Part shown: positions 11,818 through 61,391 of the stretch, in pieces
Position numbering within the stretch: the stretch's first letter is position 1
How the letters are laid out: each line of letters opens with the position of its first letter
Source: Gracilariopsis chorda
Lineage: Eukaryota > Rhodophyta > Florideophyceae > Gracilariales > Gracilariaceae
Reading direction: 5' to 3'
NCBI GenBank assembly: GCA_003194525.1
Contig: NBIV01000273.1
Location: 41,465 to 105,464, forward strand
DNA: 64,000 bases
The notes under the pieces: model-generated
Told to the model about the DNA's origin: nothing
Database searches by the model: none
Seen by the model: only the letters and a program-made list of their open reading frames with translations
Translations under genes and position numbers: made by a program

Positions 11818-11825
11818 ACATACGT
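11818..11825. repeat. Target site duplication, left copy (ACATACGT)
   Basis: The flank of the large DNA transposon. The partner at 22,569-22,576 reads ACGTATGT, which differs by two transitions. Removing the element and one copy restores an uninterrupted integrase reading frame (codons for S-L-T-Y-V-Y-K), which supports an 8-bp duplication. Confidence 0.7.
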
Positions 11826-12025
11826 CGGTGTTCTCGTTATGCTAGTTTGGCATTCAAAAAGCAAAGAATTAAAATGAACGAATAACGACTCTTGAAACCC
11901 AATTTTGAATGAATCAAATTTCTCAAAATAATTCCATACATAGCACAGAGCTAGCTTGCTTAGGACAAAAGACTAGCAGTATACTACACATTTCCCAGTG
12001 TCTTTGGAGGTAAAACTAGCGCTAG
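11826..12025. repeat. Left terminal inverted repeat and subterminal CTAGC cluster
   Basis: The terminal 20 bp match the right end at 18 positions. CTAGC or its complement occurs at 11,841, 11,951, 11,973, 12,016 and 12,021, the last two forming a palindrome. A similar set lies at the right end. Repeated subterminal pentamers of this kind are typical transposase-binding sites in DNA transposons. Confidence 0.7.
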
Positions 12026-12111
12026 AATCCACTAATACCTACCCTCTCAGGTGCACATGGAGTCCAAATCTTACTGCTCCTGAGCGAGTGCCCCTTAAAA
12101 TAGCAAAATAG

Positions 12112-12137
12112 AATAGATAGAATAGATAGAATAGATA
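12112..12137 (+). repeat. Short tandem repeat, AATAGATAG unit
   Basis: About three copies of a 9-bp unit just inside the left end of the DNA transposon. No function is apparent. Confidence 0.7.
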
Positions 12138-12369
12138 CATACCGTTTACATAACCAAATAGCTTTGGCTTTCTATCACCCGTTGCTTGACCTGCTCCCTG
12201 CATCGCATGCTCTACCCCACGCCCTACAGAAAGACGCTCTGCATCACGTGCACCACCTCATATACGTGCGCCATAATATTACGCTCCCCACTATCCCACT
12301 CCGCCACTCCGCCACCACCCTCCCTTCTCTGTTTCCAAGCATCCCGTTCTCCGTTCTCCTTCCCCCGCC

Positions 12370-13436
12370 ATGATACCCTGTTGCCATCCCCGTTGCACCT
12401 TCTATGGCCGCACCGCGTTCTCTCTCCAGAGTCACCAACGCAGGTGCCCTCTCCCCATACTTCGTCCCAATCCCCCTCCCCTCTCCTCAACAACCCCCAT
12501 CTCGAGCAACTCGTCCTCTGCATATCCTCCATCGCTTCCTCCTTTAGCACAGGCAAAGCCGACGAACTCATCTCCCTTCTCAACCACCCGGACTTCTCCA
12601 AGTCAGCCTTCCAGAAATCCATCTCCTTCGCAAAGCAGTGCCTCGCACTCCAAGAACACCTCGTCAAGGGACGTATCAACTCCACCAGTTTTATCCCTCT
12701 CACAATCTCCGACGAGCAGAACTCCTTCTCCGCAACTCTCTTCCAAAAAGGCGCCATAGACGTCCTGAAGCAACAACTCGCTCTCGCACACTTCAACAAC
12801 ATCTTCTTACAACGCGTGTCCCAATCTTCACCTTACTCTTCTTCAACCCCCACCTTCGCCCATCCTATTGCCGCAGCCTTCGGAAACAAAGTCGTTCCTG
12901 TCTTTAAACAGGCCATCACGCAGTGCCACATCAATGATATCGTCTGGCACACCCCCGAAACAACCGGTATGGAATCATTCGTCGGTCTCGTCCAGTTATA
13001 CTCCGATACGTCTGTACCCTCACTCAAAGGCTCCTCCATCACCTCCTACCCCCTTCACATCACCCTTCTCAACCTCTCCGACGCATTCCACCGAACGTGT
13101 GTCTCCCAAAACCACACCCTACTCGGATACCTCCCAACTTTCTTCTCCCCCTCTTCCTCCCCCGGCGACGGATACTCCATCCCACATTCGTCCTCCAACA
13201 TCCCACGCGAAACAAGAATGGCCCTCATTCAGAGCGCCATCTCCACAGTCTTCCGTTTCGAAGGTATCCACAGCACTACCTTTGCTTCTCTACACCCATT
13301 CCTAGCTATTAAACGCGGTTCACCGTCATCGCAACCTTCATTCTCCAATTCTTCACGATGTAGTTCTCTCACCCTCTCCCACGCCACCCCAAGTATTTTC
13401 TCCACCGCAAGCCGAAGATACTCCCCGTACAACTAG
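12370..13436 (+). pseudogene. KDZ/Plavaka-like transposase, N-terminal part, frameshifted
   Basis: An ATG at 12,370 opens a frame with a C2H2-like zinc finger (CCHPRC...SLQSHQRRC), as at the start of Plavaka transposases. A frameshift near 12,480 leads into a second frame, open from 12,186 to 13,436. It encodes a helical segment (LISLLNHPDFSKSAFQKSI) and then a block resembling the KDZ core: MESFVGLVQLYSDTS, SYPLHITLLNLSDAF and LLGYLPTF. The D in LYSD would be the first catalytic aspartate. The family protein is usually around 1000 aa, so the C-terminal part with the remaining catalytic residues is missing or unrecognised. The assignment rests on remembered family patterns. Confidence 0.5.
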
Positions 13437-13503
13437 AAATTAACAACTGCCTTCTTCCTCCACGCCCCATATCTTTGTCCATTGCTGTCAAAACAAATCC
13501 GAT

Positions 13504-15577
13504 TCACGCATCCAAACGAGCCAAATGCATCACTGTCCCATCATGGTACTCCATCTTTCCCTCCCTTTCCGTCCCCACCTCATATCCCATTAATTCTTCC
13601 AACACTTCCACGGCAGCCCCGTTCTTGAAGTACATGTCCTCTTCACTAAACTCCCTCAGCCGACCAGCAACCTGATATCCAGAATACGTAACACCCTCGA
13701 TTGTTCTCATCCTCCAAGAACATAAACTACCGCTCTTCGCCTCCCCATCCCCCTTGAACTTCGTCTTTGCTTCCTCTAACTGCTTCTTCAACTCAATGTC
13801 TAGCCCCGTCCCCTCTCGCGGTCTCACCCGTCTGGGAATCAAGTCATATCCAAGCAACGAAAGCATTTTGTCCGGTGCCGCACGCTTCCGAATCCCAATC
13901 ACATCACTCAAATTCTGCTTCATACGTTGCCTCAAACACCTGTCCGCAACAACCTCCCGCACGCATTGATCCTTCCTACCCGCATCACTAATCGACTGCC
14001 ATCTCTCCCCCTCAATCTCAATGCCAACCAAGTACTTCAATTGGTCATTACTTCCTCCTCGCGACGAAGGCGTGTACGACTTCATCTCAGACGCGATCTC
14101 AAACGGACAATCGAGGCACAATTTCCTTTTCTCCGACGACAAACACACTCCACTCTCTTCCCTTCTCCCATACTTTGCATAGATTATTCCAGTTTCTTTC
14201 CACACCCTCCAAAGTAAAACAAACTTCTGATACCTCCACCTTCGCATAGTACAACAACCTATCATATGATACCCTGGCAAACCCATAAAAACTCTCTTGC
14301 ACATCAACCACATACTTCCTACTCCCTCTCAAGCAATTTTTACCTTCAGATCTCTTTCTCTCCCCTCTTCCCACCTTCATCCATTCCCGTAAGCTACCTA
14401 TCAATATATTCTTCTCGCTCATCTCTTCTCTCATCCTCTTGAGTTCCTCTTGCGTCAGCTTCAGCGATATCTTTAGGCTGCAGTGGTCCCCTTTGATCTG
14501 TCCGAGTTCTGCCTTCAACATATTGACCCTCTCAACTAACGAAGATCAAGAAATCACACCGATGTCGTCATTTCCTGCATCTCCCAAAACATTGACATGC
14601 GGGCTTCGCTCGTCAGCAGGTTCACTTGGCGACCGATGAACAATTCATTTTCTCTCTCGCATGCCTTCCAGAGTCTGCGGTGTTCTGCTTTCTCTATCAC
14701 TTTTCAAGTTTTCAGCCATTTGCACCTTTTGCGTCCGCACGAGTGTGCTTGTACGGTCTCCGCTTTTCGATGCTTCCTGTATTCCATCCGTCGCTCTGAC
14801 CACTTCTTCCACTTCTCGCGTTTCCTTTAAATTAGAGCGGCGTCCCACTCCTTCGTTTATCATATCTCTCGTCCATCTCTCCTTCACAATGTGATCCTCT
14901 TCGTCCCCATCACTGTGTTCCAAAAAGACATTTACCTGTCCTACATCTCGGTTTCCACTTGGGGCCCCACGTCTCTTCAGCGCACCTGCCTCTTCTATTT
15001 GTTTCCTTCCGGGCATATCTTCATCCTTATTTCGGTCTTCGACCCACGCATTTCCTTTCAACCCTCCCTGATCTGTTACCTCTTCCGTTCTCCGAACAAC
15101 CAACCCTTTTTTACCCTCCACTCTACCACCCGACCCAGGCATAGATCGCTGTCCCCGAACCGAATCTCTCCCGCCTGCTATATGCGCATGGGCATCAGCC
15201 TTCAAATTCTCATTCGTCGTGCCCTCACTCGTCGTGCGCTCGGATCCGACGTTCTTTGCCCCACCTCTTCCCCCTCTCTTCAAAGCACCTTCTCCTGACC
15301 TCCTCCCCGATAATCTGCTCCTGGGAACACATGATTTCGCTTTCGTTCCACTCGCGGGTCGCTCTTCAATAGCATTTCGCCACGTCTTAGCCGCACTCGC
15401 CGCACTACCCCTTCCTGGGCCTCGCTTCTTTCCCTTCGGCGCGATTCTTGGAGTCAAAACTCTTGCGCAAGTGGCTGGTGACGCTCTGGAATGGCGCACG
15501 CCGTGTGTTTTCCGGGAAAATCTCGCCACCCGATGCGCACAGAAATCTTTGCTTTTTGTGAAATCTTGAAAATACAA
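13504..15577 (-). pseudogene. Coiled-coil protein gene of the DNA transposon, frameshifted
   Basis: Three minus-strand frames join end to end. 15,577-14,645 is a basic, disordered N-terminus with a KKRGPGRG segment. 14,640-14,099 is coiled coil rich in Leu/Glu/Lys (LTQEELKRMREEMSEKN). 14,313-13,504 is a globular C-terminus including RVRPREGTGLDIELKKQLEE and SYSGYQVAGR-like text. Coherent protein sense continues across the frame changes near 14,640 and 14,300, which suggests one gene of about 650 codons. It runs convergent with the transposase. I do not recognise the family. It might be a DNA-binding or accessory transposition protein, by position only. Confidence 0.45.
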
Positions 15578-15826
15578 TCCTCAGTGGTACCGAAAATGGA
15601 CGTTTCTGTGTCACATCTATACCGTTTTGTATCTTCTATCCCTACTGAAAAGTAATATTGTCCTAAGTTAGGACTACACAACCGTTCACATAATAAACGA
15701 CATCCTTTAGCCAAGCTGTGGAGAAAGGTTAATAACAACAAACTAATCAATGACTGTCGTTCCATCCTCCACATTCAAATGGTTTTGCCAGTCATAAACA
15801 TCACCGTATCTGGCGAAGAGTTCTTC

Positions 15827-18800
15827 TCATTGCTCTATGTTGGCTGTCACCTCCATCTTAATAAGTTTGTAGTGCGTTATTCCCCCTGGTGTTCGTCCCA
15901 CTCCCGGTGTCCGTTTCATTCGCACATTAGCCTCCCTTTTTTTCACGAGGCCATCCACCATGGCATCTAACTGTTTATCCCCTTCGACGTACTTTAGATG
16001 GTTGATATACCCCGCAATACAAAAGGGGAAGGAACAACCCATAAAATGGGGTTTGCTTGTTTTCCATGCCAATTCGTCAGCTGTTTTCGATGCGGAAGTG
16101 ATTGGAACTGTTGACCGTAGACTTCTATCTCCACCGCATACTTCCGGAAGCGATCCTTCGTCACACCCATGACTCCCTCCCCATAGGTCTTGTGCACTTC
16201 TTTCCGATTCGAAAGGTCATGATAAACCAACGTTTCGTAGAAATAACACACTACCTCGCCTGCAGCAATTCGACGACTTGCAAACACTCCAACACCAGCC
16301 TTTTCGTGACGAATAGTAGACTTGCCCACTCGCAACCCATATTGCACAGCCTCCATTGCCAATAGAGACTTCATGTTCTCCAGTTTCATTATTCCCTGTA
16401 GCTCCATCGGCCATCCATACATAACTTTCTTCCTTCCCAACTTCCCTAGAATTCCACTTTGCCACAAAGTGGAGAGAAAGTCGAGAAGGTGTGGGGGAAG
16501 AATTTGGTACGGTGGAAATCCGTCGACAGCCCTCCCTAACACGGTGTGCCTGCTTCTCCCCATTGGGAATGCAGAGGAAACACAATGGGCCATCTTTCGA
16601 CGCTCCTGGCTCTTCTCAATATCCGTGTGTCCTTCCCGTATTATGGAAGCGAAGCGAACAATAGCGGCATGCCTGGCGTGTTCAAAGCAAGCTTTGTCCG
16701 GTTCACACCCCACAAACTTCCGATGCTTGGGCAGTTCCATGCACGCCATCGCTGTCGAGAACGTTCCGGCAAACATGTGGACCACGAGGTCTCCTGGCTG
16801 ACTGAACCTGCAAATCAGCTCTTTCAACAGTGCCCTACACTTCTGTTCCGGTCGCACCCTCTTCCTCGTATACTTCCCATCCGGGGTTTTCACAGAACAC
16901 ATAAGCATCTCACTATTTGATATCGGGGGCACCTGATCCATGATTGCATGATACGCTGGGTATCGTGAAGCAACATAATTGAAGTTCTCATATTGGACCA
17001 TCCGGTGCTGTTGTGCATAAGGAACTCCAGACCGAACAGCATGTACAGCGTATTCTGTCGTCTGGTGCAACCGGCAACTTCTTCTCCCAACGTTACCAGT
17101 CGTATTACCTAAAGACCGTACGAAATGGAGGGGCTGTTCGTCGACGACAAAGAAGTAACGCTTCGTATCAGAGTCATCCAGGTAGGTAACTTTCCGTAGC
17201 ACATCCCGCCACAACGGTACCTGATCCCAATGAGCAGAACTGTATAATATGTCCACCAGAACGTAGAAGGTTTGACGGCCTCCTCGCTGACCTGCTCATG
17301 CCCTTCTCTGTCAGAATATCGTGTTCGCTGTTCTCCAAACGACGCTCAGAACGAGTCCCATATGGCGGATCGGAAAGCAGGAACTGTACCCTTCCTTCAA
17401 TAGATATCTCACTTTCGCCAGACTTGTTGTCGTCAACTTCGATGAGATTTTCGAACTTGCAGTTGTGGAAACGAAAGTTGTGGGACATCTCCTTCTCACA
17501 GTACTTGTAAGCTATCACATCATCCAAAGTCGTAGGGTACGGTGGTGCACGAATACCCGTGCCTTCGACATCATAGGATACGTTCTGGGACAAAGCTGTT
17601 GTCTGCAGTCCTTCAGTGGCCTTTGGTGCAGTACCACGTTCTGCAGTACCACTTTCCGCATCCTTTACCCTCTCTATCTCTTCCACTTCTTCCAAGTCAC
17701 CCTGATCACCACCTTCCACACGCTCAGCACGTTCGTTCCCACCACCAGCCGTACCAGTTTCTACCAGCTCCATAATGATTTCAACGTCTTCTGCGGGCTC
17801 TGTTTTCACAGCTTGATGTACTTTGACATTGCTTCCATGCAATTCAATGAACTTCAGAGGCTTTATGGCATTTTGAACCGTAGTGAAAAGAGATTCACTA
17901 AAGTTCTCAAACCGCAGAGGGTAAAGTCTCGTTCTCGTGATGATGAACGTTTTGAGGGGATCCCATTTGCTGGGAGCAGAGATGTCGAACAGTTTCTCTT
18001 GTAACACCACATTAGAAAGGTCATCAAGGTATTCTTTGGCACGAAGGCAAAGCGCTGTATCCACTGGGTTCGGCAGATTCCATGCCCATTTGGTAACGTT
18101 TTCTTCTACGGTGGTGACGTTCTTCTCCTCCACAAACTGTTTGGAACAATCATTTTGTTGGAAGCCCATGGAGCGTTCTACGATATCGGTGAAGACTACA
18201 CTGATATAATCGAGTCGAATGTAAGGCAAGATCATAAACTCAACGTTGGGAAACCCGAGAAATCGGGGGAAACAATCCCAAGCCCTGGTCACCAGCTGCA
18301 CACCATACCCAACTCTCTGACTCTGGGTCTTGTCCGACAAACTCACTTTCGAGAACTTCTTAGCTGCCATGCCCCTTTTCCTTTTTCTACCACTTCCTTT
18401 CTTATCCACGGCATTCTGTTGCACCATAGACAACCCAATGACCATTTGAAAGTCGGTGCAAGGATCCGTGTGGAAAGCGGAAGATTTCTTGGTTGCTCCC
18501 AGAACAAGGGACTAGCAAAAGACAGATAGCAACACGTTACGGGGAATTCCTTTAAGCCCTTCCCTTTTACAATAAACCTTCCAAAAGTCCCTTACACGCC
18601 TGCCTTCTTCACGGTCCTTTACGTCCACCACTCTTGCCATAAGATAGAGTTGACGTGGAGGGCCTCTGAGAGACATGTTACGGAGCTCGGAGTCCGAACA
18701 CGAGATGTAATCCGGTCCCATGAGAGTGAGAAACATTTTCTCGGCAGAGTCATGAACGTTGCGACGTTCTACCGCGAACTCCACAAAGTCCGTGTGCTTC

Positions 18801-18895
18801 AAACTTTTCGGCTCATCCACATTTTGCCTCGTCGCTGCGTAGTCATCACGAACTGCAAGATAAGCATCAATAGGCTCTTCTCCGGTTCCGTGCAT
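15827..18895 (-). pseudogene. DNA methyltransferase (beta-type N6A/N4C) fused to a SET domain, broken
   Basis: One minus-strand gene in four pieces. The N-terminal part (18,895-18,515) and the next ORF are in one frame across a TAG at 18,512-18,514. The second piece (to 17,174) has a Glu-rich linker and motif IV DPPYGTR (17,360-17,371). After a frameshift near 17,240, the third piece carries motif I FAGT (16,762-16,773) in the context LVVHMFAGTFSTAMACM. Motif IV before motif I is the beta-class order of bacterial amino-methyltransferases. The C-terminus is SET-like: GVGVFASRRIAAGEVV (near 16,260), GYINH (near 16,005, after another frameshift) and an EELFARYGDVYDW end beyond a TGA at 15,827-15,829. 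Such enzymes would methylate DNA bases and histone lysines. This copy is inactive as it stands. Confidence 0.75.
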
Positions 18896-18948
18896 CTTGA
18901 ATGAACCCGTTTCCTTCGAATTATGTTTCTCTTCGTTTTGGGTCGAGG

Positions 18949-19080
18949 ACCGTGGTCCGAGGTGTCATGGTGCTCCATCGCGAAGAAGATGGAGCGCCAG
19001 GCATGAATTTTAATTAAACTTTCGCGTCCTGGCGCTCCATCGTGTTCGCGATGGAGCACCACGACACCTCGGACCATGGT
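18949..19080. repeat. 132-bp near-perfect hairpin between methyltransferase and ParB-like genes
   Basis: Two 53-bp arms (18,949-19,001 and 19,028-19,080) are inverted complements with four mismatches, around a 26-nt AT-rich loop. Each arm holds the word TGCTCCATCGCGAA and an ATGGAGC core, giving an internal second symmetry. It lies 54 bp upstream of the ATG of the methyltransferase ORF. It could be a shared operator, a binding site for the ParB-like protein, a small foldback insertion or a small-RNA source. None of these is shown by the sequence alone. Confidence 0.9.
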
Positions 19081-19443
19081 CGTCGACCAAAAAATTATCA
19101 AATTCTTTTTGCAATGCAAGTAATTGGGAGGGGAATTGCAGGGATGCTACGTTGACGACAATGGATGTCATGAAAATGATATTCATCTCTTTGGAACCAA
19201 GCATACGTGATCACGGAAGCATTCGACGTCAGCGGGTGCCAAGAAAGCGCAAGCGTGACCTTTGAAGTACTCAGCCATAGATTCGACTGGGAATAAGATA
19301 AACGCGCCACCACGGAAACGGACTCCGAGGAAGCCTGTTTCGCCAAAGAGACGTGTTATCGACATGCCGACCACGCGAGGCAAAGCGAAGAGCCGGGGCG
19401 CCACCTGAACTGCCAGCCACCCTGAGCCATCAATTGGGGGCAA
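19010..19443 (-). pseudogene. Protein-like minus-strand remnants upstream of the methyltransferase
   Basis: Open pieces at 19,443-19,183 (FGETGFLGVRFRGGAF) and 19,204-19,010 (SQLLALQKEFDNFL) look more like protein than chance. They could be the broken 5' part of the methyltransferase gene, or of another small gene cut by the hairpin. No ATG starts the first piece and no domain is recognised. Confidence 0.25.
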
Positions 19444-19510
19444 TACGGGTCAGGTGCTTAAGGGCGATGCGGAGGTCAATCAGTTCGTACGAGTTGGGAG
19501 TAGTGATGCG

Positions 19511-21535
19511 ATGGTGAAGGTAGGAGAGGTGAAATTGCGCGGTGTGTGGGTTGCTGGGTGGCCGGGGACGAGAATCTGTCGTTCACTACACAACCATCCC
19601 CTGTCCTCTACGCAGAGACCTGGAGAGGACTTGGTGGTTATCTTTAAGATAAATATTTCGTCATACCAAGATGAGAAGTACCCTTGTGTTTTTGAGGGTC
19701 CCGAGGAACCGCCAGCAACTTTGAAGGAGATGGTTTCAGCAGGTTTATATGCATGGGACACTGCGATGATGAGTGTCAAAAATGAAGGCGGAGAGGGGAG
19801 TAAGTCGGTTCCACTGCAGTCAGGAGCAATTGTGAAGACTGTCCACAGAAGTACAGCTTCCAGGACCACTGCAGGACAAGTCAAGCGCATTCCCGCTGTT
19901 GCTGGTACACCATCAAGCATTTTGGTGACCAAAGCGCCGGTGAAGAGCCTTGAGAGCGGTGGAGAGGCTCCGGTGAAAACCCGTCAGAGCGGTGGAGGAA
20001 CATCAGGTGCTCTTGCGGGCGGCTCTGGAAACCGAGGAGGCCCTGAAGTTGGAGCAAGCTCCGATCATGACGTCATAGAGGTGCCTGTACTCTCCAGGAA
20101 CGATCTTGATCCGGAGGAGAAGGTTTTATATGATGATGGTGATGCTGTTCCTTCGGAGAAGGTGGATAACAGTTTGGGGGTCTTAGACATCAATCGAAAT
20201 GACCATGACCAGCACAATTGCGTACTCGATATCCACAACATTCTATTTCCGAAGAACATGGTTCGTTCGAAGAATGACAAACATCTTCGAGATACTTCGA
20301 ACAAACTGAGGAAATTCGGATGGCTCCCTTCTCTTGGGTGGATTGCCGTGGCCCTGTTGGAGGATGTGCCGGCTCGTGACGTTATTGATACGAGTGGGCG
20401 TTTGATTGTTCCTGTGGTTTTGGTGGACGGCTTCCATCGGGTAATTGTTCTACTGGACCTCGAGCAGGATGGTGTGAGGTGGGCACGGATTACTGCTGGG
20501 TTGAACGTCACGCTTTGGGAACGGAACGACGGCCGGAGAATGACATTGAATGAGTTGTTGTGGCTGGGGAAGAAGTTGAATGATTTGAGCTCCAATGTTC
20601 TGGTGATGTCCTGCGCAGATAAGATTCACACTGCTGTTTCGTTTATTCGTAATGGCGTAGAGCAGGATGGGTATGAGTTGTCGAAGCTTAAACCAAGCCG
20701 AATCATGGAGGTGTTGTGGAGCAGTGAGACGAAGGGGAAAGAAGGGAAGATACGTCATTTCAATCGCCATTCTGCGCTTGCTCTGAAGTTTGCGCGTAAT
20801 CCCGGTCTGTTAGAGTTCTTCGATGTGGTGTGCCAGGAGACGCCTCAAATTGGAATCACTCATGTGTCTAGTGATATTCTGCTTGGAATGTCAGGGGATA
20901 AGTTTCGTTTTACTATGCAATGTCTACAGGCGCATGTTCGAGTGAGGTCGGCGGCCACTGTGAAGATGGGACCGTTTGAGGATTTCCGAAAGTACTTCTT
21001 CGACTGCGCTTCTAGAACGTATGACATTTGCAGTGAGCTGGGGAGTTCCATGAAGGAGAGAAGGAATGTACCGGAAGTGATGAATACCACGGTTACCATC
21101 TGCGATTCTGACCAGACTGTGTCGAAGTATATCATATCTCGTCTGGGAAAGAGGTATACGAAAGGGAAACGCAGTTCACTGGAGTCCAGAGTGAGTAATA
21201 AGGTGAAAGAGGTTCGTAGGACGTTGTCCAGCGCTTTTTCGGGCATGCAGAGACAGGATGCTACTGCTGCTGCTCCCTCTGCGGCCGATGTGGACGTGAT
21301 CGAGTTGCTTGGTCTGAATGAGGAAGCTGCTAAGGAGCCTCTGAACGCTGACCAGGAGCCTCGAAGAAGTAAGCAAATCGCAAAGAAGTGTAAAGTGGAG
21401 GTCTTGGACGAAGATGAAGGTGAAGAGTCATTTGATTTTGAGCCACCGATGAAAAGGCAGAGACCATCGAATCGTAAGCCGACTGCACCTGATGTGAAGC
21501 GATTTGGCTTTGGTATCTCGCAGGAGGTGGTGTAG
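19511..21535 (+). CDS. ParB/sulfiredoxin-fold-like protein, about 674 aa
   Basis: The frame is open from 19,409, and the first ATG is at 19,511, chosen as start. A Ser/Gly/Pro-rich N-terminal third leads to an IHNILFPKN...LRKFGWLPSLGWIAVALL segment and LVDGFHRVIVLLDL (about residues 302-315). That matches the ParB-superfamily pattern of a strand-forming 'G.l..i.V' stretch followed by VDG.HR. A long helical region follows, then an acidic C-terminus with basic patches (KKCKVEVLDEDEGEE, MKRQRPSNRKP) like a nuclear localisation signal. ParB-like domains bind CTP and DNA, or act as nucleases, and in bacterial mobile DNA often sit beside beta-class methyltransferases. Here the gene diverges from a methyltransferase-SET gene across a hairpin. 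The family call is by motif only. The ORF itself is intact. Confidence 0.55.
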   Translation: MVKVGEVKLRGVWVAGWPGTRICRSLHNHPLSSTQRPGEDLVVIFKINISSYQDEKYPCVFEGPEEPPATLKEMVSAGLYAWDTAMMSVKNEGGEGSKSVPLQSGAIVKTVHRSTASRTTAGQVKRIPAVAGTPSSILVTKAPVKSLESGGEAPVKTRQSGGGTSGALAGGSGNRGGPEVGASSDHDVIEVPVLSRNDLDPEEKVLYDDGDAVPSEKVDNSLGVLDINRNDHDQHNCVLDIHNILFPKNMVRSKNDKHLRDTSNKLRKFGWLPSLGWIAVALLEDVPARDVIDTSGRLIVPVVLVDGFHRVIVLLDLEQDGVRWARITAGLNVTLWERNDGRRMTLNELLWLGKKLNDLSSNVLVMSCADKIHTAVSFIRNGVEQDGYELSKLKPSRIMEVLWSSETKGKEGKIRHFNRHSALALKFARNPGLLEFFDVVCQETPQIGITHVSSDILLGMSGDKFRFTMQCLQAHVRVRSAATVKMGPFEDFRKYFFDCASRTYDICSELGSSMKERRNVPEVMNTTVTICDSDQTVSKYIISRLGKRYTKGKRSSLESRVSNKVKEVRRTLSSAFSGMQRQDATAAAPSAADVDVIELLGLNEEAAKEPLNADQEPRRSKQIAKKCKVEVLDEDEGEESFDFEPPMKRQRPSNRKPTAPDVKRFGFGISQEVV

Positions 21536-21889
21536 GTGCTGCATAGTATGGAAAGGAGAGATTTGGAGAGGTGGCTGACATCACAGGAGATCATTGTGCC
21601 CGGGTCAAGCGAGGATGAAGCTCAAGAGGACTTTGTGGATGATGAGGAAGACGAGGCAGAGGAGCAGGAAACCACAGGCAGCTTTGACGATAAGAATCCT
21701 GACAAGCCTCCAGCTGGCGTAAGTACGCCAGGAGAGCTGGCTATGGGAGTGGACATGTGTTGGGTGGACCTGGTATACTCGTTGCCGAGTGAGTGGCCTG
21801 GAAGCGCAAAATGCAGTGAAGCATTCCCATCCATGGATGCAGAGGATAAATCTGAGGAAGCACCATCGGGCGGAGTGCCTATCACCTGA
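21536..21889 (+). CDS. In-frame acidic extension beyond the TAG of the ParB-like gene
   Basis: Directly after the TAG at 21,533-21,535 the same frame stays open for 117 codons, with an Asp/Glu-rich tract (FVDDEEDEAEEQE). Length and composition continue the acidic C-terminus upstream. It may be a former or read-through C-terminus, or a short downstream gene starting at the internal ATG near 21,548. The stop may simply be a mutation. Confidence 0.35.
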   Translation: MLHSMERRDLERWLTSQEIIVPGSSEDEAQEDFVDDEEDEAEEQETTGSFDDKNPDKPPAGVSTPGELAMGVDMCWVDLVYSLPSEWPGSAKCSEAFPSMDAEDKSEEAPSGGVPIT

Positions 21890-22294
21890 TGACTTCTAAA
21901 TGGTTCATCATGCTGTATACTGGCGTGCGTCACGCAACATACACAAAGAGATGGGTACTACGACACGTGCAGTGCTGGGCGTGAAGATGGGGTCGTGAAA
22001 AGGAGGTTGGAGGAGAAGGACGAAAAAAGATTGGAGGTTAAGAGTCGGTTGAAGAGGAGGCATGGAAAGAGGGAAGAGGGAGAAGAAGGCTAGTGATGTC
22101 TAGGAGTGTCGTTGAGGCTGTTAGGAAGACGGAATGGGTGGTATGGGAATCTGATGTGCGGTGCGTCAGGTGTCTGAGAACGGAAAGAGCTGCCCAGATG
22201 AGTTCCTGAGGATGCGTTGAAAGTCAAAATAGGGCAGTATGAAGTTTGAAATTCAAAAGAAGGAAATAAAAATGTTGGTTTTGGCTGGGTGCTC
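21890..22294. other. No gene seen; right interior of DNA transposon
   Basis: Purine-rich sequence (about 22,000-22,090) with no open frame of note. It leads into the right subterminal region. Confidence 0.4.
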
Positions 22295-22331
22295 GAAATG
22301 GCGCTGGCCACTGCGCGGCTAGCGCCATTTC
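22295..22331. repeat. 15-bp-arm inverted repeat in right subterminal region
   Basis: GAAATGGCGCTGGCC and GGCTAGCGCCATTTC pair with one mismatch across a 7-nt loop. The second arm contains one of the CTAGC motifs. The position suggests a structural or binding element of the transposon end. Confidence 0.8.
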
Positions 22332-22568
22332 AAGATCTGTATCTAGCTTTTAGTGGAGAATGAACTTGCTCTAAACTTGAAACTAACGATGCGCAGTGCA
22401 GGTGAGGCAAGGCTCTGTAACATATGGAAGTGTGAATTCCAAAGAATTTGTTTCTTTTACTTGGCAAGCGCCAGAAACTAGCATAATCTATCATTTTTGT
22501 AGTATTTTTGAGCTTTTGCCTAAGAAACTTGCGATCTAGCACCTCTATCTAGCATTCCGAGAACACCG
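22319..22568. repeat. Right terminal inverted repeat and subterminal CTAGC cluster
   Basis: CTAGC occurs at 22,319, 22,343, 22,478, 22,536 and 22,549. The last 20 bp complement the left end with two mismatches. The layout mirrors that of the left end. Confidence 0.7.
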
Positions 22569-22576
22569 ACGTATGT
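22569..22576. repeat. Target site duplication, right copy (ACGTATGT)
   Basis: Direct partner of 11,818-11,825, with two transition differences. The gypsy integrase reading resumes immediately to the right. Confidence 0.7.
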
Positions 22577-29623: not shown

Positions 29624-30685
29624 TGCCGGTCGCAAAATTGGTAGAATATTCCAGCACTGCTGGAACACACGTGTAGAGTGCTCCAGCAGTGTCTGGAGCA
29701 TTGTAAGCTTCGCTGGCCCAGCATTACCACTGTATTTCGGTGATGCAGTCGCCAGTTGCTAAATTACTATTGGTTACTGTGCAGCTTCAGAGGCTTCTGG
29801 AAGCCAATGGAGTAAACTAGACGCACACATGAGTAAGTAGAAAGTAGTAATGCGTTTCTGTGTTGTTTTGCATGCTTTTTGACTCTATAAAAGGGCCAGT
29901 TGAGTTCCGAACTTCGGTCTGGACTCATTTCAAGGAGAACCACATCTCAAACGCCTCACCCCCGCAACTATCTCAACTATTACTATCAACCATCAACTCT
30001 CAACCGCACTTAGTGAGGCGCTTGCCGCTTTGTGCATAATTGGGGTGGAGCATTACCGTCGCTGAGACCGGTTGAAGCGCCCTTGGCGTGGACGGAAGAC
30101 GGGTAGTGTGTACCAAAGGCGCTTCTGTCGTCTGTGAGAGCCCACCGGAGCTTTGCTCGGATAACGGTGACGGTCGAAAGACCTGATGGTTTCCGGACGG
30201 AGGTGCTTGACGGGAAGCTGTCCACAGGCGACGTGCCGTGCAACCTCTCCTGCAAAGGGCCAGATTGGGTATAGATTGAAAGCATATCCCGCTGTTAGTA
30301 GGTCTCTTTTGGAAGCCCTGTAAGGCTTGTAAGCACCTGCTTCTTATTGGTGCAGAAGCGGGTAGGCTGCAGAAATCACTTCATATCCGGAGTGTCTTAC
30401 CGGAAGCCGGGAGTCTGACTCCTATTGACCATTGAAATAATTCTTGGGTTGTGTGCCGTTTCAAGAAGTATCAAGAAGTTTTTATTTGGATTGAGCCTTG
30501 TGCTCTCCTTTTGTATTTGTTTTTATCGTTGCAGGTTGAGTCCTTTCGGTCCCTGCATTGGTTGTTCGTTTGATGTTTTATTCGTGTCGTTTCATCTTTT
30601 TGGGGCTTCGAGCTACGGAATCTTTTTAGGCTAGTTTGTCATTTATTTTGGCCCCCTGCGTCACCGTCTCGTGATGGCGCCCACA
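29624..30685 (+). repeat. Solo LTR 1, 1062 bp, with CTAGT target duplication
   Basis: Begins TGCCGGTCGC and ends GGCGCCCACA (TG...CA), flanked on both sides by CTAGT (29,619-29,623 and 30,686-30,690). It is an inverted, diverged copy of the repeat at 37,075-38,136, and both are 1062 bp. A TATA box (TATAAAA, 29,886-29,892) sets the orientation as plus. No internal retroelement sequence is attached, so it is a solo LTR left by LTR-LTR recombination. The gag fragment next to it is on the opposite strand and belongs to another element. Confidence 0.85.
29886..29892 (+). promoter_or_regulatory. LTR TATA box facing the NB-ARC gene
   Basis: TATAAAA followed by GGGCC inside solo LTR 1. The homologous motif lies on the minus strand at 37,866-37,872 in solo LTR 2. 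It is directed toward the gene at 31,171, about 1.28 kb away. Confidence 0.6.
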
Positions 30686-30690
30686 CTAGT

Positions 30691-31170
30691 CTAAACAAAA
30701 TTATTCTAACTACCGAAACGGTCTAGAAGCTCCTGTTTGAACAAAAGCGCCGACGCAAGTACGGCTTACAGCCCTACATGCACACTTTCCCCACTTCTTC
30801 CAACAAATCGTAGTCAACGACCAATTGCATCGTTTGTTTCGCACATAATTTCGTGCAGATTCGCGCATCATTTGTGCAGTAAGGGCACAGCGAGGCCAAT
30901 CTTTTCGGCACGCAGCTCGTCTCGGCCACAGAAAGCGAAAATCGAGATTCGCCTGCCAACTGTCATGAAATAGACACAAGAATACACAATGAGCTCTTCC
31001 TCCGCCGTCCCACTTGCATTTAACGCGCCCGGAACGACCGCAGTATTCTTGTCTAATCCGAGCTCCGACAAATTCCGCGGAACGTTTGCACGCCTTGCAT
31101 CTGCTTGAATATTGCTTTCCCCAGGAGTTTTGCTGTGCATCCGCACTGAACCACCTATTTTCGGCGAAGG
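30691..31170. other. Upstream region of the NB-ARC gene; no other gene seen
   Basis: About 480 bp between the solo LTR and the ATG. Short open frames on the minus strand lack motifs. No clear TATA box was found close to the start. Confidence 0.4.
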
Positions 31171-34100
31171 ATGGAGACCACAGGTGCAGTACTGGGCACA
31201 ATAACCGGAGCGTTCGACCTACTTGACAGGGTTGAGTTGTACGTAAACCGGTACTTTGAGAGAAGGGATTTGGCCGAAGACAGTGTCGCACTGCACTTAC
31301 GTTTGCTGGAAGAGCACCGAACCGCATTACAACTCATTCAGAAGATTGAACAACGTGATTTCGATCGTGAACCCATATGCAACGAGATCATACGAGGCAG
31401 ACTGGGCGAGATGAAGTCTGTTCTGGAGAGCAGCAAAAATGATCTAAGTGCTCTCAGTAGTACGCTAAGCAATGCTGGCGCAACCAGTCGTGTCCGAAGG
31501 GCAAACGCGACGCTAAAGAATCACGAGAAAGATATCGCGGAGTTTCGCGGCTTTCTACAAGATACGGTGATACCGGCGCTCAGAGAACACAACCAAGCTA
31601 TTCAGGTGAACAGTAATGTTCCCCCGAATCCGCCGAGACTGACACTGCAGTACGAAAATAAGGATACTAGCGAGGGGAAACTGAAAGCTGCTATTCTAGA
31701 AGGCAGCGGCAGTATGGTTGTCGGCGTTGTGGCTTCTGGCCTGGGAGGTGTTGGGAAGTCATGCGCTGTGAGGGGGCTGGCGACGGTCCCGAAAATCAAG
31801 GACGAATTTCCTGGAGGGCTCCTCTACATTGAGCTCGGAAACGATGCAGGTATTGCCGAAATCATCAAAGGGATCTCGCGGATTGTGGAGAGAACCGGTG
31901 ATGTGCAGCTCGCTGCAGCAATACGTGGCGAGATATACCTGCAAGATGCATCTGATAAAGCTGCGCCATGGTTTCGTGGACGCAAGTGCTTGTTTGTGGT
32001 TGACGATATATGGTGGGTGAATGGCATAACCTCGAACGTTTTCACAATTCTGGGTACCATGTTACACGATGAAAGCCTGCTGGTATACACAACCAGAGAT
32101 GAACGGTTTTTGAGAGGAGCTAACAGAATAGTTCGCTTTGAAGAGAAAGAGGCACATGGGGAGCTGGCACGGCGTATGTTGTTGACGCATGCTGGATTCG
32201 ATAGTGATGCCGATTTCAGCGCAGCAAACCGACAAGCTTTGACAGGTATTCTGGACATATGCGGAGGACTTCCTCTTGCTCTTGGAATTGCAGGCTCGAC
32301 AATATGGACGCACCAAGAGAAGCGAGAAGGCGACAAACAGGATGTGTTTACTGATTATTATCACAGTTTGCAATCCCAAGAAGATAATATTTTCAAGGGC
32401 AGTGCAGAGGAGTATGGACCGCTGAAACTGATTGTGGACAATTCTATCGAAGTGTTAGAGTCGGAGAGCTCGGAAACAGACAGGGTAACGAAGAGAAAGA
32501 TTGGAGAGTTGTTTCGGGCACTGTGCGTGCTCAAGAAGCAACAGAGGGCTTACGGAGAGATGCTGCAGAAGCTGTGGGACATGGATAGCTTAGGTGAGAC
32601 ACGGGAGGTCGCCGAAAAGATGCATGAGGTGTCGCTTGTTCGGATGACACTAGCGGGCGGGAATGTATTCTATGTACAGCTGCACGACTTGGTGCTGGAC
32701 ATTGCGACGCGCAAGGCGTCGGAGAGGTACGAAAAGAAGGCGCACTTTTCAACTCTGGCGGACAAGTACATGCCAAAGATGGTCGACGGCGCAGATTTGC
32801 TGACGGCACAGATTGAGAAGCGACAGTTGTTCAGAGCGTGGTGGACTGTGGCAGACGACGGGTACATTGTTGACAACGTGTGCCGAGTTTTGGAGGGAGC
32901 AGGAGAAGCGGAGGAAGTATTATGGTTGTTGGAAAGAGCGCAATGGGTGGTGATGCGGCTGCAAAAGTATGGTACCAGTGGTGTGGAGGACGACGTAAGA
33001 ATCGCCGAGGAGGCGAGTAGGAAGGCAAGTACGGAGCATGGTGCGACGTTGAAGTACCTGGACATGATACGTAGCGCGGCTCGGATGAGTTGCGGTGCCG
33101 TGTCGCGAAACGCGTGTGAAGCTTGGTTTCAGCTGCACGGGCGTGTTGTGTGGTACGCAACACAGTGCAAGAAGATAAGCGCATTTATAGCAGAGATCGA
33201 ACATCACGCACCTCGCCCTTGGGTGAAAGCTCAGGCCGGATTCTTACTTGGTGCAGGAGGCGCGGCGTTGGACTCGTTAGAGACGACTGTCCGCTTGCTC
33301 TGCATATCGCACGGGAAGGAATTGGTTCGATTCGTCGGCACTGACGGAGATGATGTGTTCGTGACCGAGTACGATAGAAGGTACGGGAACCAGACGCGAT
33401 ATGCACTTGTTGGAAACAAGCGGTCCGAAGGCGTGACGGAAGGCGCTGCTGCAAGCAGTGTGGGTGAAGATGAAGCTGGTACGGAGAGGCAGAAGTGTCG
33501 TTGCGCTGCGTTTTCGAAGGACATGAAGAAGGTGATAACCGGGCACGAGGACGGGAGCGTACTGGTATGGGACATTGATCGCGGATACAAGCTTGACGGG
33601 CGCGTGAGCATGCATGTGGATGAAACTGATGTCGCCGCAGAGGAAAGAAAAGTACGAGGTAAATTGGATGCACTCAGGAATATGTGTTGCGGACTGTGGA
33701 AGAGCGAAGGGACGATGAGAGAAGCTGCGAGTAGCCGTGTGAGAAGTGAGCGCAGTACTGTGAAATGCTTGGCGGTAAGTGCAGACGGATCGAAGATTGT
33801 TTGCGGCTCATCTGACGGCAACGTTTCTGCGCGAAGCTGTGGAAGCGGTGCTGTCGGGGTTGCGCTTGACGCACTCCCGGGAAGTGGAAGGGTTGAACAC
33901 GTTGCGGTGAGCAGTGACGCGAGACGAGTGGTTTGCGTTCAGGGCAGCGATATTCACGTGTGGGACCGCGGGTGTGGGACATGGCTGGCAGTGCCTGCAG
34001 AGCTGGAGAACGTTGGCGTGAGGTGTGTTGCGGTGAGCGCTGATGGAGAGAGAATAGTGTGCGGTACGGAAGGAGGTGCGGTTCTCGTGTGGGACGTCAA

Positions 34101-35379
34101 CAGCAGTGAAAGTACAGTGCGGAGCATGTCGGGACACTCGCGTATGGTAGGGTGTGTTGCGCTAAGTAGCGACGGAGGAGTGGCTGTGTCTGGATCGTAT
34201 GATCACACCGTTCGCGTGTGGGACGCGGACAAAGGCGAGATGCTGTGCGCACCGCTGAGAGGACACAAAAATATTGTAATGTATGTGGCATTGAGCGCAG
34301 ACTGCAAAGAGGCTGTTTCGGCATCAGGGGACGGCAGTGTGCGGGTGTGGGACGTGCAGAGAAATGTGGAGACGCTGCACGATGACGAACGCTTCACAAC
34401 CGCAATAGAAAGTTTTGCATACGGTGGCCATGGCACACGAGCTGTTTTCGGGTCAGATGACGGGTGTGTTCGGTTGATGGACGTGGAGAGCGGACGAGTG
34501 GTCGAACAGCCTCTGCGCGGCCACACCGCTGCTGTGCATGACGTTGCGCTGAGCGGCGACGGCAGTCGAATTGTGTCGGCGTCACTCGACGAAACTGTGC
34601 GAGTGTGGGACGCGAACAGCGGTGCGGCTGTTGGTGCGCCGCTGACGGATGTGGACGCATCTCGCGTTGCGGTGAGCAATGACGGCACGCGAGCAGTCGC
34701 TGGGCTGCTCGATGGGGCGCTGGTTATGTTCGACACGCGCAGTGGCTGCGTCATTGCGCGTCTCCGCGGCGGCACCGGCGCCGTTTGGTGTTGCGCGATG
34801 AGCAGCGACGGCACTCGAGTTGCGTCCGCCGGACGAAACGGCACGGTTCGGATCTGGGACGTGGCCACGTGTGCAGCAGTGGCGCTGCCGCTCTTCGGTC
34901 ATACAGCGTCGGTGTATTGCGTGGCATGGAGTGCCGATGGCAAACGAGTGGTGTCCGCATCAGGGGACGGCACGGTCCGCGTGTGGGACGTGGACACGGC
35001 ACAGCCCGTCGGCGATGCCATCGTTCACGGCGAACTGGTCAGTCATGTGCAGACGGATGCGCACGGTTCGCGCGTCTTGTCCGTCGATAGGAACGGTTAT
35101 GGGCGACTGTGGGACGTGACGCGCGCCGAGTGCGTCATCACTTCCAGTCACCGCGCATGGGCCCAAACCGTGCGCAGGTTTGGACTCGCTCGACTTGAGA
35201 TGCTTCGTTACTTGTATCGTGATACGAAAATAATGTGGCGCGATGCCGCCGGGCAAGAGCAAGTATTGGCGTCTCCAGACACACTCGTGATACGAGTTGG
35301 CGACAAGTACTTTGCTGCGGAGCATGGTCCATCGTCCGTCCCGTTTTGTCAGGTGCAACACGCCTCGCACTCCGTGTAA
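31171..35379 (+). CDS. NB-ARC (STAND ATPase) protein with C-terminal WD40 repeats, 1402 aa
   Basis: Intact and intronless from ATG to TAA. The N-terminus (about 1-145) is helical. The NB-ARC ATPase has P-loop GLGGVGKS (about 190-197), Walker B CLFVVDDIW (about 271-279), a TTRDER sensor (about 309), GLPLAL (about 366) and a QLHDL element standing for MHD (about 505). A helical stretch to about 740 is followed by roughly twelve WD40 repeats (about 775-1330), many ending in VRVWD. This is the APAF-1-like layout: ATP-driven oligomerisation with WD40 ligand sensing, a cytosolic signalling or defence receptor by family. The ligand and effector are unknown. A broken paralogue follows at 35.7 kb. Solo LTRs flank the pair. 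Confidence 0.93.
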   Translation: METTGAVLGTITGAFDLLDRVELYVNRYFERRDLAEDSVALHLRLLEEHRTALQLIQKIEQRDFDREPICNEIIRGRLGEMKSVLESSKNDLSALSSTLSNAGATSRVRRANATLKNHEKDIAEFRGFLQDTVIPALREHNQAIQVNSNVPPNPPRLTLQYENKDTSEGKLKAAILEGSGSMVVGVVASGLGGVGKSCAVRGLATVPKIKDEFPGGLLYIELGNDAGIAEIIKGISRIVERTGDVQLAAAIRGEIYLQDASDKAAPWFRGRKCLFVVDDIWWVNGITSNVFTILGTMLHDESLLVYTTRDERFLRGANRIVRFEEKEAHGELARRMLLTHAGFDSDADFSAANRQALTGILDICGGLPLALGIAGSTIWTHQEKREGDKQDVFTDYYHSLQSQEDNIFKGSAEEYGPLKLIVDNSIEVLESESSETDRVTKRKIGELFRALCVLKKQQRAYGEMLQKLWDMDSLGETREVAEKMHEVSLVRMTLAGGNVFYVQLHDLVLDIATRKASERYEKKAHFSTLADKYMPKMVDGADLLTAQIEKRQLFRAWWTVADDGYIVDNVCRVLEGAGEAEEVLWLLERAQWVVMRLQKYGTSGVEDDVRIAEEASRKASTEHGATLKYLDMIRSAARMSCGAVSRNACEAWFQLHGRVVWYATQCKKISAFIAEIEHHAPRPWVKAQAGFLLGAGGAALDSLETTVRLLCISHGKELVRFVGTDGDDVFVTEYDRRYGNQTRYALVGNKRSEGVTEGAAASSVGEDEAGTERQKCRCAAFSKDMKKVITGHEDGSVLVWDIDRGYKLDGRVSMHVDETDVAAEERKVRGKLDALRNMCCGLWKSEGTMREAASSRVRSERSTVKCLAVSADGSKIVCGSSDGNVSARSCGSGAVGVALDALPGSGRVEHVAVSSDARRVVCVQGSDIHVWDRGCGTWLAVPAELENVGVRCVAVSADGERIVCGTEGGAVLVWDVNSSESTVRSMSGHSRMVGCVALSSDGGVAVSGSYDHTVRVWDADKGEMLCAPLRGHKNIVMYVALSADCKEAVSASGDGSVRVWDVQRNVETLHDDERFTTAIESFAYGGHGTRAVFGSDDGCVRLMDVESGRVVEQPLRGHTAAVHDVALSGDGSRIVSASLDETVRVWDANSGAAVGAPLTDVDASRVAVSNDGTRAVAGLLDGALVMFDTRSGCVIARLRGGTGAVWCCAMSSDGTRVASAGRNGTVRIWDVATCAAVALPLFGHTASVYCVAWSADGKRVVSASGDGTVRVWDVDTAQPVGDAIVHGELVSHVQTDAHGSRVLSVDRNGYGRLWDVTRAECVITSSHRAWAQTVRRFGLARLEMLRYLYRDTKIMWRDAAGQEQVLASPDTLVIRVGDKYFAAEHGPSSVPFCQVQHASHSV

Positions 35380-35690
35380 TTGTTCACATGTTTTCGCTCA
35401 ATGTATCAACCATGTTCTATAAAGAGAGAAACTGCCAATCTTATCTACCTCCGACAGTTGTCAAACCCTCCGCACTTATCTGCATCACTAAGCTGCACCT
35501 TCCTGCAAAGCGTGATAAAGGGTTAACCCTTGTCTCGCCTTCACTCTACTGCAACAATCCACCAAGAGCTCCGTTCGCATGTCCCTGCACTCGTTGCGGT
35601 GCAAACTGCACGTCTCTCGCTCCCATCAAGCATACATGACGCTCAGCAACCGAGTAAAGAACAAATGGTTTCCGCAATTGGTGGAAAGCC
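35380..35690. other. Intergenic; no gene seen
   Basis: Spacer between the NB-ARC gene and its broken paralogue. It may contain decayed paralogue sequence, but nothing aligns by eye. Confidence 0.4.
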
Positions 35691-47663: not shown

Positions 47664-48490
47664 TGTGGTGCAATGCCCCAAAGGGGAAAAACACCGAAAG
47701 ACGTTCGGGATCTTCCTCTCAAGAGGTGAACCCAGTTGGGTAGAGCCCTCCCAGAGGTGTCACGGCGAAGCCGGTTTGTAAGACCAGGGACACCTGTCGC
47801 GACTCGCGCAGGGAGGTGAAGGCGAAGAATCGGTATCCGCGTGAGCGGGGTGTGATCCTCAGTAGAGGTATGTTTCCACGTAAGTGGGGGCGTGTGGGCG
47901 GATGCGCACACGAGGGCCGCGGATAGCGGGAGGTGCTACCCTAAAAAGGGGGAAAAGGAAGGGCCAAGAGGAGGAAGAGAGGACGATGTGAGTCGCGAGA
48001 GCGACGAACAGATACGGCAATGCCGGTGGACAGGACTCCCTATACAGGGCGAAACACCAATATGATTGGAACAATTATACTCCCAAGGATGGGCTTCTTT
48101 AGATGTGCAAGGGGGTTAGATGTCCCGTGGTTTACGGCGTTTCCCTCCAAGGAGGAGTAGAGTACGCGCGCAAGCGGCAACAACTAGAGCCAATTCCCCA
48201 GGTTGGGGTCCCTTGTTGGGGAAGGTTTACTGGTGCGACGGCAGTGCGCCGTCGCACTAAGTACTAGCTTCCCAGAAATGGGTGTGATAATAATAAATAA
48301 TATTAACTAAAATATTCCACATTTCGTGGCAACATCCACTACTGTGGCCAACCGCCAATTGACCCAAAACCGTGTTCCACGTGTCCATATCCACCATAGT
48401 GGGGCGTAGTTCATATACACACTACACAACCGATAATATCGGCAAAGCGTTCAAGTACCCAGAATCCCTCCCTGAGGGCGTTGCACTTCA
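47664..48490 (-). repeat. 3' LTR of the young gypsy (copy A), 827 bp
   Basis: On the minus strand it starts TGAAGTGCAACG and ends CATTGCACCACA, an imperfect 12-bp terminal inverted repeat. Boundaries are set by those ends, by the polypurine tract at its inner edge, and by loss of identity with copy B beyond the outer edge. Hairpins such as CCCC-AAA-GGGG (47,676-47,686) occur near the end. Confidence 0.88.
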
Positions 48491-48504
48491 TATCCCCCCC
48501 CTAA
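48491..48504 (-). other. Polypurine tract
   Basis: Minus-strand CTTAGGGGGGGATA, directly before the LTR. In retroelements it primes plus-strand DNA synthesis. The tandem copy has the same tract at 59,358-59,370, one G shorter. Confidence 0.75.
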
Positions 48505-48546
48505 GACGGGAAAACGACCGCGGACGCGGAGGATTCCCAGACGAAA

Positions 48547-50334: not shown

Positions 50335-50525
50335 AACCTCTAGTCCAGTTTCCTGGTTCTTCTTTCCCTGGCTATGCCAGTTAGTGTGGTGTAGTATTGT
50401 GGGGAGCTAGCTGCTCCCTTGAATAAACTTTCCGGTTTAGAACGGTGCTTCTCGGTTAAGTTCCCCGTCTTCGACGGACCTTGCCTTGTTATCCTTTCCT
50501 ATCGCTCTCCGCTCGCGCGGCAACG

Positions 50526-58529: not shown

Positions 58530-59357
58530 TGTGGTGCAATGTCCCAAAGGGGAAAAACGCCGAGAAAGAAGTTCGGGATCTTCCTCTCACGAGGTGAACC
58601 CAGTTGGGTAGAGCCCTCCCAGAGGTGTCACGGCGAAGCCGGTTTGTAAAACCAGGGACACCTGTCGCGACTCGCGCAGGGAGGTGAAGGCGAAGAATCG
58701 GTATCCGCGTGAGCGGGGTGTGATCCTCAGTAAAGGTATGTTTCCACGTAACTGGGGCGTGTGGGAGGATGCGCACACGAGGGCCGCGGATAGCGGGAGG
58801 TGCTACCCTAAAAAGGGGGAAAAGGAAGGGCCAAGAGGAGGAAGAGAGGACGATGTGAGTCGTGAGAGCGACGGACAGATACGGCAATGCCGGTGGACAG
58901 GACTCCCTATACAGGGCGAAACACCAATATGATTGGAACAATTATACTCCCAAGGATGGGCTTCTTTAGATGTGCAAGGGGGTTAGATGTCCCGTGGTTT
59001 ACGGCGTTTCCCTCCAAGGAGGAGTAGAGTACGCGCGCAAGCGGCAACAACTAGAGCCAATTCCCCAGGTTGGGGTCCCTTGTTGGGGAAGGTTTACTGG
59101 TGCGACGGCACTGCGCCGTCGCACTAAGTACTATCTTCCCAGAAATGGGTGTGATAATAATAAATATTATTAACTAAAATATTCCACATTTCATGGCAAC
59201 ATCCACTACTGTGGCCAACCGCCAATTGACCCAAAACCGTGTTCCACGTGTCCATATCCACCATAGTGGGGCGTAGTTCATATACACACTACACAACCGA
59301 TAATATCGGCAAAGCGTTCAAGTACCCAGAATCCCTCCCTGAGGGCGTTGCACTTCA
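58530..59357 (-). repeat. 5' LTR of the young gypsy (copy B), shared with the next tandem copy
   Basis: 828 bp with the same ends as copy A, and about a dozen differences from it. The inner edge (58,530) is followed by the primer-binding site. The outer edge (59,357) is followed by the polypurine tract and antisense ORF of another copy, so this LTR serves as 5' LTR for one element and 3' LTR for the other. Confidence 0.88.
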
Positions 59358-59412
59358 TATCCCCCCCTAAGACGGGAAAACGACCGCGGACGCGGAGGAT
59401 TCCCAGACGAAA

Positions 59413-61276: not shown

Positions 61277-61391
61277 CTGCTCCCTTGAATAAACTTTCCG
61301 GTTTAGAACGGTGCTTCTCGGTTAAGTTCCCCGTCTTCGACGGACCTTGCCTTGTTATCCTTTCCTATCGCTCTCCGCTCGCGCGGCAACG

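Follow-up and report, generated by a model that had tools for sequence, protein, structure and literature searches.

A decayed giant Plavaka-type transposon in Gracilariopsis chorda with a methyltransferase–SET gene, a divergent ParB-like gene and a palindrome between them

The element and its insertion site

The window analysed here is a stretch of 64,000 nt from the red alga Gracilariopsis chorda (GenBank contig NBIV01000273.1, positions 41,465 to 105,464 of the forward strand). It contains a giant cut-and-paste DNA transposon of the Plavaka type, in a copy that is broken and has lost internal sequence; the target-site duplications are 2 bp long. Between the ends lie remains of a transposase, a coiled-coil-like gene, a DNA methyltransferase gene fused to a SET domain and a divergently oriented ParB-like gene. 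The features are as follows, in window coordinates.

11823–22571: whole element, 10,749 bp, ends CGTCGGTGTTCTCG..CGAGAACACCGACG
11821–11822: left target-site duplication TA (direct TA/TA pair; the joined flanks match 38 uninterrupted Gypsy copies)
11823–11845 (+): left terminal inverted repeat CGTCGGTGTTCTCGTTATGCTAG, from an inverted-repeat search
11842–12025: left subterminal CTAG cluster, 5 sites in 300 bp
12162–13436 (+): Plavaka transposase fragment (63 % identical over 367 aa to the frame of the related copy C53; PF18759 at E 0.005, short of the cut-off)
13504–15580 (−): coiled-coil-like gene in three broken open frames, 13504–14328, 14099–14545 and 14645–15580
15827–18964 (−): beta-class DNA methyltransferase fused to SET, open frames 18512–18964, 17174–18511, 15994–17295 and 15827–16216
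18936–19093: palindrome, a parS-like candidate, between the methyltransferase–SET and ParB-like genes (66-nt arms, 91 % complementary, 26-nt loop)
19409–21889 (+): ParB-like gene, a 708-aa frame at 19409–21535, a stop, then 21536–21889, without the dioxygenase-like C-terminus
21893–22093 (+): terminal remnant of a small gene downstream, which in C53 is a 276-aa frame (end residues alike, by eye)
22319–22552: right subterminal CTAG cluster, 5 sites in 300 bp
22549–22571 (−): right terminal inverted repeat, reading CTAGCATTCCGAGAACACCGACG on the + strand
22572–22573: right target-site duplication TA

A preliminary description of this DNA had set the limits at 11826 and 22568 and had given the element an 8-bp target duplication. 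Each true end is 3 bp outside these limits, and the 8-bp duplication was dropped because its two 8-mers, ACATACGT and ACGTATGT, are reverse complements and thus inverted, not direct. The true duplication is a 2-bp direct repeat in all seven copies with both ends available, namely the window copy and six of the young copies described below; outside CGTCGG..CCGACG it reads CG, AT, AG, TA, CT and TA in the young copies and TA in the window. The inverted ends and mirrored CTAG clusters of that description were borne out: the arms are 28 nt long and near-perfect, and CTAG occurs at 10–23 per kb in both terminal 300 bp versus about 1 per kb inside (three elements examined).

The insertion site is a Gypsy integrase gene, and the flanks of the element are the two halves of its frame. 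The genome was searched as 91.3 Mb in 1081 contigs; such searches score the best candidates only, so that all counts from them are lower bounds. Joined over a single TA, 300 nt of the flanks gave 40 matches, made up of the two window halves and 38 further copies whose junction is uninterrupted by the element, one of which is identical at 299 of 299 bases across it. An intact window copy was discounted on account of the transposase fragment, the interrupted methyltransferase–SET and ParB-like frames and the missing dioxygenase-like part.

Transposase, cargo genes and palindrome

The full-length transposase of C53 (L035:2584–6063, 1160 aa) matches PF18759 at E 2.7e-21, with 76.6 bits against a cut-off of 26.3, and the profile has 114 matches in this genome and none in any of 14 control genomes. 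By eye, the C53 frame also has C(2)C and H(3–4)H before the last E (CPRC, HLLDH, then E), residues that the truncated window fragment lacks. According to the available text of Kojima 2025 (PMC12730594), Plavaka belongs with EnSpm to the CMCT clade, apart from KDZ, and makes 2-bp or 2–3-bp duplications; the transposase domain in C53 and the 2-bp duplication both agree with this placement. The termini, CGTCGG..CCGACG, are neither the TGT..ACA nor the CATCA..TGATG of PlavakaA and PlavakaB. A Pfam scan of the 1160-aa protein at E up to 1, in which no dedicated KDZ profile was run, matched Plavaka alone. The transposase had earlier been called KDZ/Plavaka-like; PF18759 sustains the Plavaka part of that name, and KDZ membership was rejected because the duplication is 2 bp, not 8 bp, and Plavaka is set apart from KDZ by Kojima 2025.

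The joint presence of a DNA methyltransferase and a SET domain, also noted before, is supported by Pfam scans of the window and of an intact relative (L033:5067–8261, 1065 aa), the SET profile PF00856 scoring just under its cut-off in the latter. In this relative PF01555 reaches 66.8 bits and motif IV precedes motif I, as in the beta class (DPPY at 524–527, GDxVVDxFAG near 716–725); by sequence this DPPY methyltransferase lies near DpnA and CcrM. A precomputed SET annotation is present in 24 of 36 homologues. Searches of virus contigs found no relative of the methyltransferase–SET homologue P0003 and no ParB–dioxygenase relative; at least 70 methyltransferase loci there match query residues 503–797 only, and none among those listed matches the SET part. 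The coiled-coil-like gene shares 71 % and 68 % identity with an 821-aa open frame of C53, and a Pfam scan gave no match for either the window copy or this relative.

The ParB-like label given earlier to the divergent gene is upheld by a structure model of its homologue P0038, which predicts a ParB/Srx N-terminal fold followed by a helical, probably DNA-binding part. DGxHR is invariant in the alignment of this region, at the expected place of the ParB nucleotide motif. In longer copies the gene continues into a dioxygenase-like half, missing from the window and overlooked in the preliminary description, in which the HxD..H..R set of 2-oxoglutarate (2OG)-Fe(II) dioxygenases (H170, D172, H246, R262) is invariant in six aligned sequences. 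As regards the TET/JBP family, none of the six members has a Pfam match at E up to 10.

Likewise overlooked was the meaning of the palindrome at 18936–19093. The window has a single palindrome of 158 bp; in young copies the space between the divergent genes holds two near-perfect ones, 94 bp and 90 bp long and separated by about 240 bp. With up to one mismatch, the 17-bp core TGTCGTGGYGCTYCATC has 267 genome matches versus 1 for a reversed control. The best 100 of these 267, all exact, form 57 loci, every one of which has an element feature within 9 kb. Among the matches listed, 19 loci have both the methyltransferase–SET and the ParB-like gene within 6 kb, and in all of them the core lies between the two. 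It was found in 9 of 10 young copies fetched, and the exact core is present in at least 28 of 45 paired-end elements, several of them without a remaining methyltransferase or ParB match.

Copies, gene order and selection

The search for other copies with both ends, proposed in the preliminary description, was productive: further copies share both. The 251-bp left end has at least 40 genome matches at 93–100 % identity (best 40 of 135 candidates scored) and the right end at least 40 at 92–100 % (best 40 of 130), and a 14-bp end motif, CGTCGGTGTTYTCG, has 165 matches versus 6 for its reversed control. Protein identity separates three family groups. Old copies resemble the window (80–93 % in methyltransferase–SET); young copies are near-identical to each other and mostly 72–75 % identical to the window, many with long open frames. 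The third group, at about 40–55 % identity with the dioxygenase-like query, was also found with PF01555. Six of its loci were examined: compared with the young transposase, those of L012 and L014 show 50 % and 52 % identity, and the other four have no forward frame above 400 aa of the right group or strand. The third-group Plavaka element at L012:320 ends in a related but different terminus, CGTCTGTGTTTCCGG.

Plavaka, methyltransferase–SET and ParB matches occur together in 9 of 49 paired-end elements; these nine are 13.9–17.6 kb long. The cargo of such longer relatives comprises the transposase, the coiled-coil-like protein, the methyltransferase–SET fusion and the divergent ParB-like protein with its dioxygenase-like C-terminus. 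In C53 (11,851 bp) the transposase (1160 aa), coiled-coil-like (821 aa) and methyltransferase–SET (1065 aa) frames are open and most of the ParB-like gene is missing; in copy C550 the ParB-like frame is open over 1417 aa and the methyltransferase–SET frame is shifted. Hence the frames are not all open in any one of the copies fetched.

Gene neighbours were counted with 97 of 99 methyltransferase–SET rows and 61 of 77 ParB-like rows (second pieces of the same loci dropped), the first 100 of the 165 end-motif matches and 80 rows from both end searches; for the dioxygenase-like part, 107 loci were drawn from 134 rows. ParB-like and methyltransferase–SET neighbours are head to head in 44 of 44 pairs, and the Plavaka gene lies on the opposite strand, on the 3′ side of methyltransferase–SET, in 58 of 62. 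In the nearest-neighbour count with the dioxygenase-like query the order relative to methyltransferase–SET is kept in 38 of 38 cases. Among 61 further methyltransferase loci, found with PF01555 only, it is kept in 28 of 28 with the dioxygenase-like part and 19 of 19 with Plavaka. The view first proposed, that this is one transposon, is supported; its cargo genes accompany shared ends and other copies repeat their order. The alternative that the cargo is unrelated host DNA was rejected.

The preliminary description had also raised the occurrence of these genes away from the ends, as ordinary host genes. Of the 97 methyltransferase–SET loci, 5 lack a neighbouring end, Plavaka or ParB match; these may be host genes or cut contigs. 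The most divergent full-span methyltransferase–SET match (C96:80936–82153, 56 %) has no end, Plavaka or ParB match nearby and is possibly a host gene or part of another element.

Outside this genome, P0003 and P0038 are each found on 4 contigs, the longest of 20,528 bases, which suggests that the two are located on one common contig. Among named relatives, the nearest come from Chondrus crispus and Gracilaria domingensis, both red algae.

Ratios of non-synonymous to synonymous divergence (dN/dS; Nei–Gojobori, single pairs of the window against young copies) are 0.20 for the ParB-like gene (694 codons), 0.17 (410 codons) and 0.22 (414 codons) for methyltransferase–SET, 0.32 for the transposase fragment (367 codons), and 0.20 (201 codons) and 0.07 (144 codons, with dS saturated at 2.7) for the coiled-coil-like gene. 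Decay of the window copy raises the ratio, so these values are conservative.

Elsewhere in the window, an NB-ARC and WD40-repeat-like gene (open frame 31150–35379, 1409 aa, named by eye) lies at 29627–38136 between inverted repeats (29627–30508 and 37229–38136) that are 79 % identical; together they may form a mobile element with an NLR-like gene as its cargo. A 5.5-kb direct repeat in a Gypsy region, 99.1 % identical and with a 609-aa frame in both copies, spans 47664–53157 and 58530–64000 in a tandem or very long-repeat arrangement. Additionally, a repeat of about 470 bp (78 % identical) occurs at 209–676, 48090–48560 and 58957–59426, the first inverted relative to the other two.

A putative chromatin-marking function

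The cargo genes are predicted to act on DNA or chromatin by binding, methylation and oxidation, and the element may write its own chromatin marks. A ParB fold beside a conserved palindrome in operator position suggests binding at the palindrome, and a dioxygenase-like fusion with a DNA/histone methyltransferase partner suggests that marks are placed or edited on the element itself. The preferred reading, to which a probability of roughly 0.45 is given, is that these genes would constitute a self-addressed chromatin-marking kit with a net anti-silencing effect in cis. For the ParB-like protein the palindrome would be a binding site, the counterpart of parS for bacterial ParB, and the protein would spread along the element as a clamp; the dioxygenase half, carried over the element in cis, would remove or alter repressive methyl marks, and the methyltransferase–SET protein would put an adenine mark on the DNA and a methyl mark on the histones of the same element. 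Most likely, the element and its transposase gene would as a result stay open despite host silencing. The complete system, in which ParB clamp loading at the parS-like palindrome carries the dioxygenase and is joined by a two-layer DNA and histone writer, is a more tentative proposal.

Several observations weigh against this reading. The ParB region matches no ParB family by sequence in Pfam or PDB; its one Pfam match is AFG1_ATPase (2 of 6 sequences, E 0.0025) and its one PDB match is unrelated (E 0.21). The dioxygenase-like part has no Pfam or PDB sequence match, so that its putative assignment rests on motifs, and its structure model falls below pLDDT 50; among four further relatives HxDF is kept in three, GRGDxxH in two and RYHxY in one. 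In L033:5067–8261 SET scores 22.0 bits, just below the cut-off of 22.4. Loci without a partner match nearby number 5 of 97 for methyltransferase–SET, 21 of 61 for the further methyltransferases (neither dioxygenase-like part nor Plavaka) and 32 of 107 for the dioxygenase-like part. The exact core is missing, among the matches listed, from 17 of 45 paired-end elements, and from young copy C27 even at 3 mismatches, so the palindrome is not strictly needed for a copy between ends. The low dN/dS values are rough: each comes from one pair of sequences, and dS is near 1 or higher.

We infer anti-silencing in cis as the first choice over self-repression, replication timing and segregation. Self-restraint is the strongest competitor, if an improbable one: the kit would silence its own copies or limit their number; methyltransferase–SET would lay down repressive marks, and from the palindrome the ParB-like protein would repress its promoter in the manner of plasmid KorB/ParB. 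Such tight control is opposed by the copy numbers, at least 40 for each end and some two dozen for the near-identical young methyltransferase–SET genes, and the dioxygenase would be superfluous. Dam methylation times the transposition of some bacterial elements, and here, too, adenine methylation could mark old DNA so that hemimethylated DNA after replication licenses the transposase. Linkage of the transposase and methyltransferase genes and the nearness of the latter's product to DpnA and CcrM fit this, yet SET, ParB and the dioxygenase-like part would be left unexplained, and the explanation is given little credence. Slightly less probable again is passive cargo, in which trapped host-derived genes accompany a palindrome that is a functionless nested fold-back repeat. 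It would account for the many broken copies and the many with part of the cargo only; against it stand dN/dS values of 0.07–0.32, the same gene order in the distant group, homologues with both enzymes elsewhere, and a core with 15 of 17 letters conserved between subfamilies that have a synonymous divergence near 1. Least probable is a role in segregation or tethering, with the palindrome as a partition site for excised circles or a tether to chromatin: the modelled ParB fold with its DNA-binding span does adjoin the palindrome, but no Pfam match of the scanned element proteins is ParA-like and excised circles are not known.

Relation to known systems

Giant Plavaka elements are said to have been described by Petroll and co-workers in 2025. 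The available part of PMC12477816 cites giant EnSpm elements with accessory genes in the red alga Bostrychia (Petroll et al. 2025), and by that citation they resemble the present family as giant EnSpm/Plavaka-kind red-algal elements with several accessory genes. Plavaka giant repeats are likewise reported in Amoebidium in the portion of PMC11244446 available. As far as the text of PMC12477816 was accessible, Sola1-1_Ec32 of the brown alga Ectocarpus and similar transposon proteins of green and red algae combine a ParB-like domain with an N4C or N6A methyltransferase, and binding and epigenetic modification of their own transposon have already been suggested for them. Like the present element, Sola1-1_Ec32 belongs to the large DNA transposons of algae and has both a ParB-like domain and a DNA methyltransferase. 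It joins both in one protein of 1104 aa on Sola1, whereas here two divergent proteins are carried on Plavaka, the methyltransferase fused to SET, ParB fused to a dioxygenase-like domain and a palindrome between them.

Fungal Plavaka elements carry TET genes and make 2-bp duplications (Kojima 2025, PMC12730594, in the part available). They share with the present element the Plavaka transposase, the duplication length and an accessory 2OG-dioxygenase (putative here) thought to counter silencing; they differ in their termini (TGT..ACA or CATCA..TGATG), in that methyltransferase–SET or ParB is not mentioned in that part, and in that the dioxygenase-like part here matches no Pfam family. The same text places SET genes in HarbingerS and MuDR elements, a likeness in carrying a SET histone methyltransferase gene inside a DNA transposon, and there mentions no fused DNA methyltransferase or ParB. 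In the accessible text of PMC8885841, the bdelloid N4CMT is similarly a bacterial amino-methyltransferase gained by horizontal transfer and with a link to histone marks; it differs as a host gene with SPPY and a chromodomain that silences transposons. Compared with bacterial ParB–parS, Noc and KorB, the ParB-like protein here belongs to a eukaryotic transposon and is fused to a dioxygenase-like domain.

With Plavaka bearing TET, SET in other transposons, algal ParB–methyltransferase proteins and Plavaka giants all published, the kind of element is already known. The SET fusion, the ParB–dioxygenase fusion and the palindrome were not found in the literature searched; Petroll et al. 2025 may cover some of these features. 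Mark-editing transposons have so far been known one enzyme at a time; here a DNA and histone writer appears to move, under selection, together with a putative editor and a sequence address. If the proposed function is true, the family would show how a mobile element sets its own chromatin state in cis and would offer a natural, addressable ParB-based chromatin tool, and it would become testable whether transposons make part of the adenine methylation in algae.
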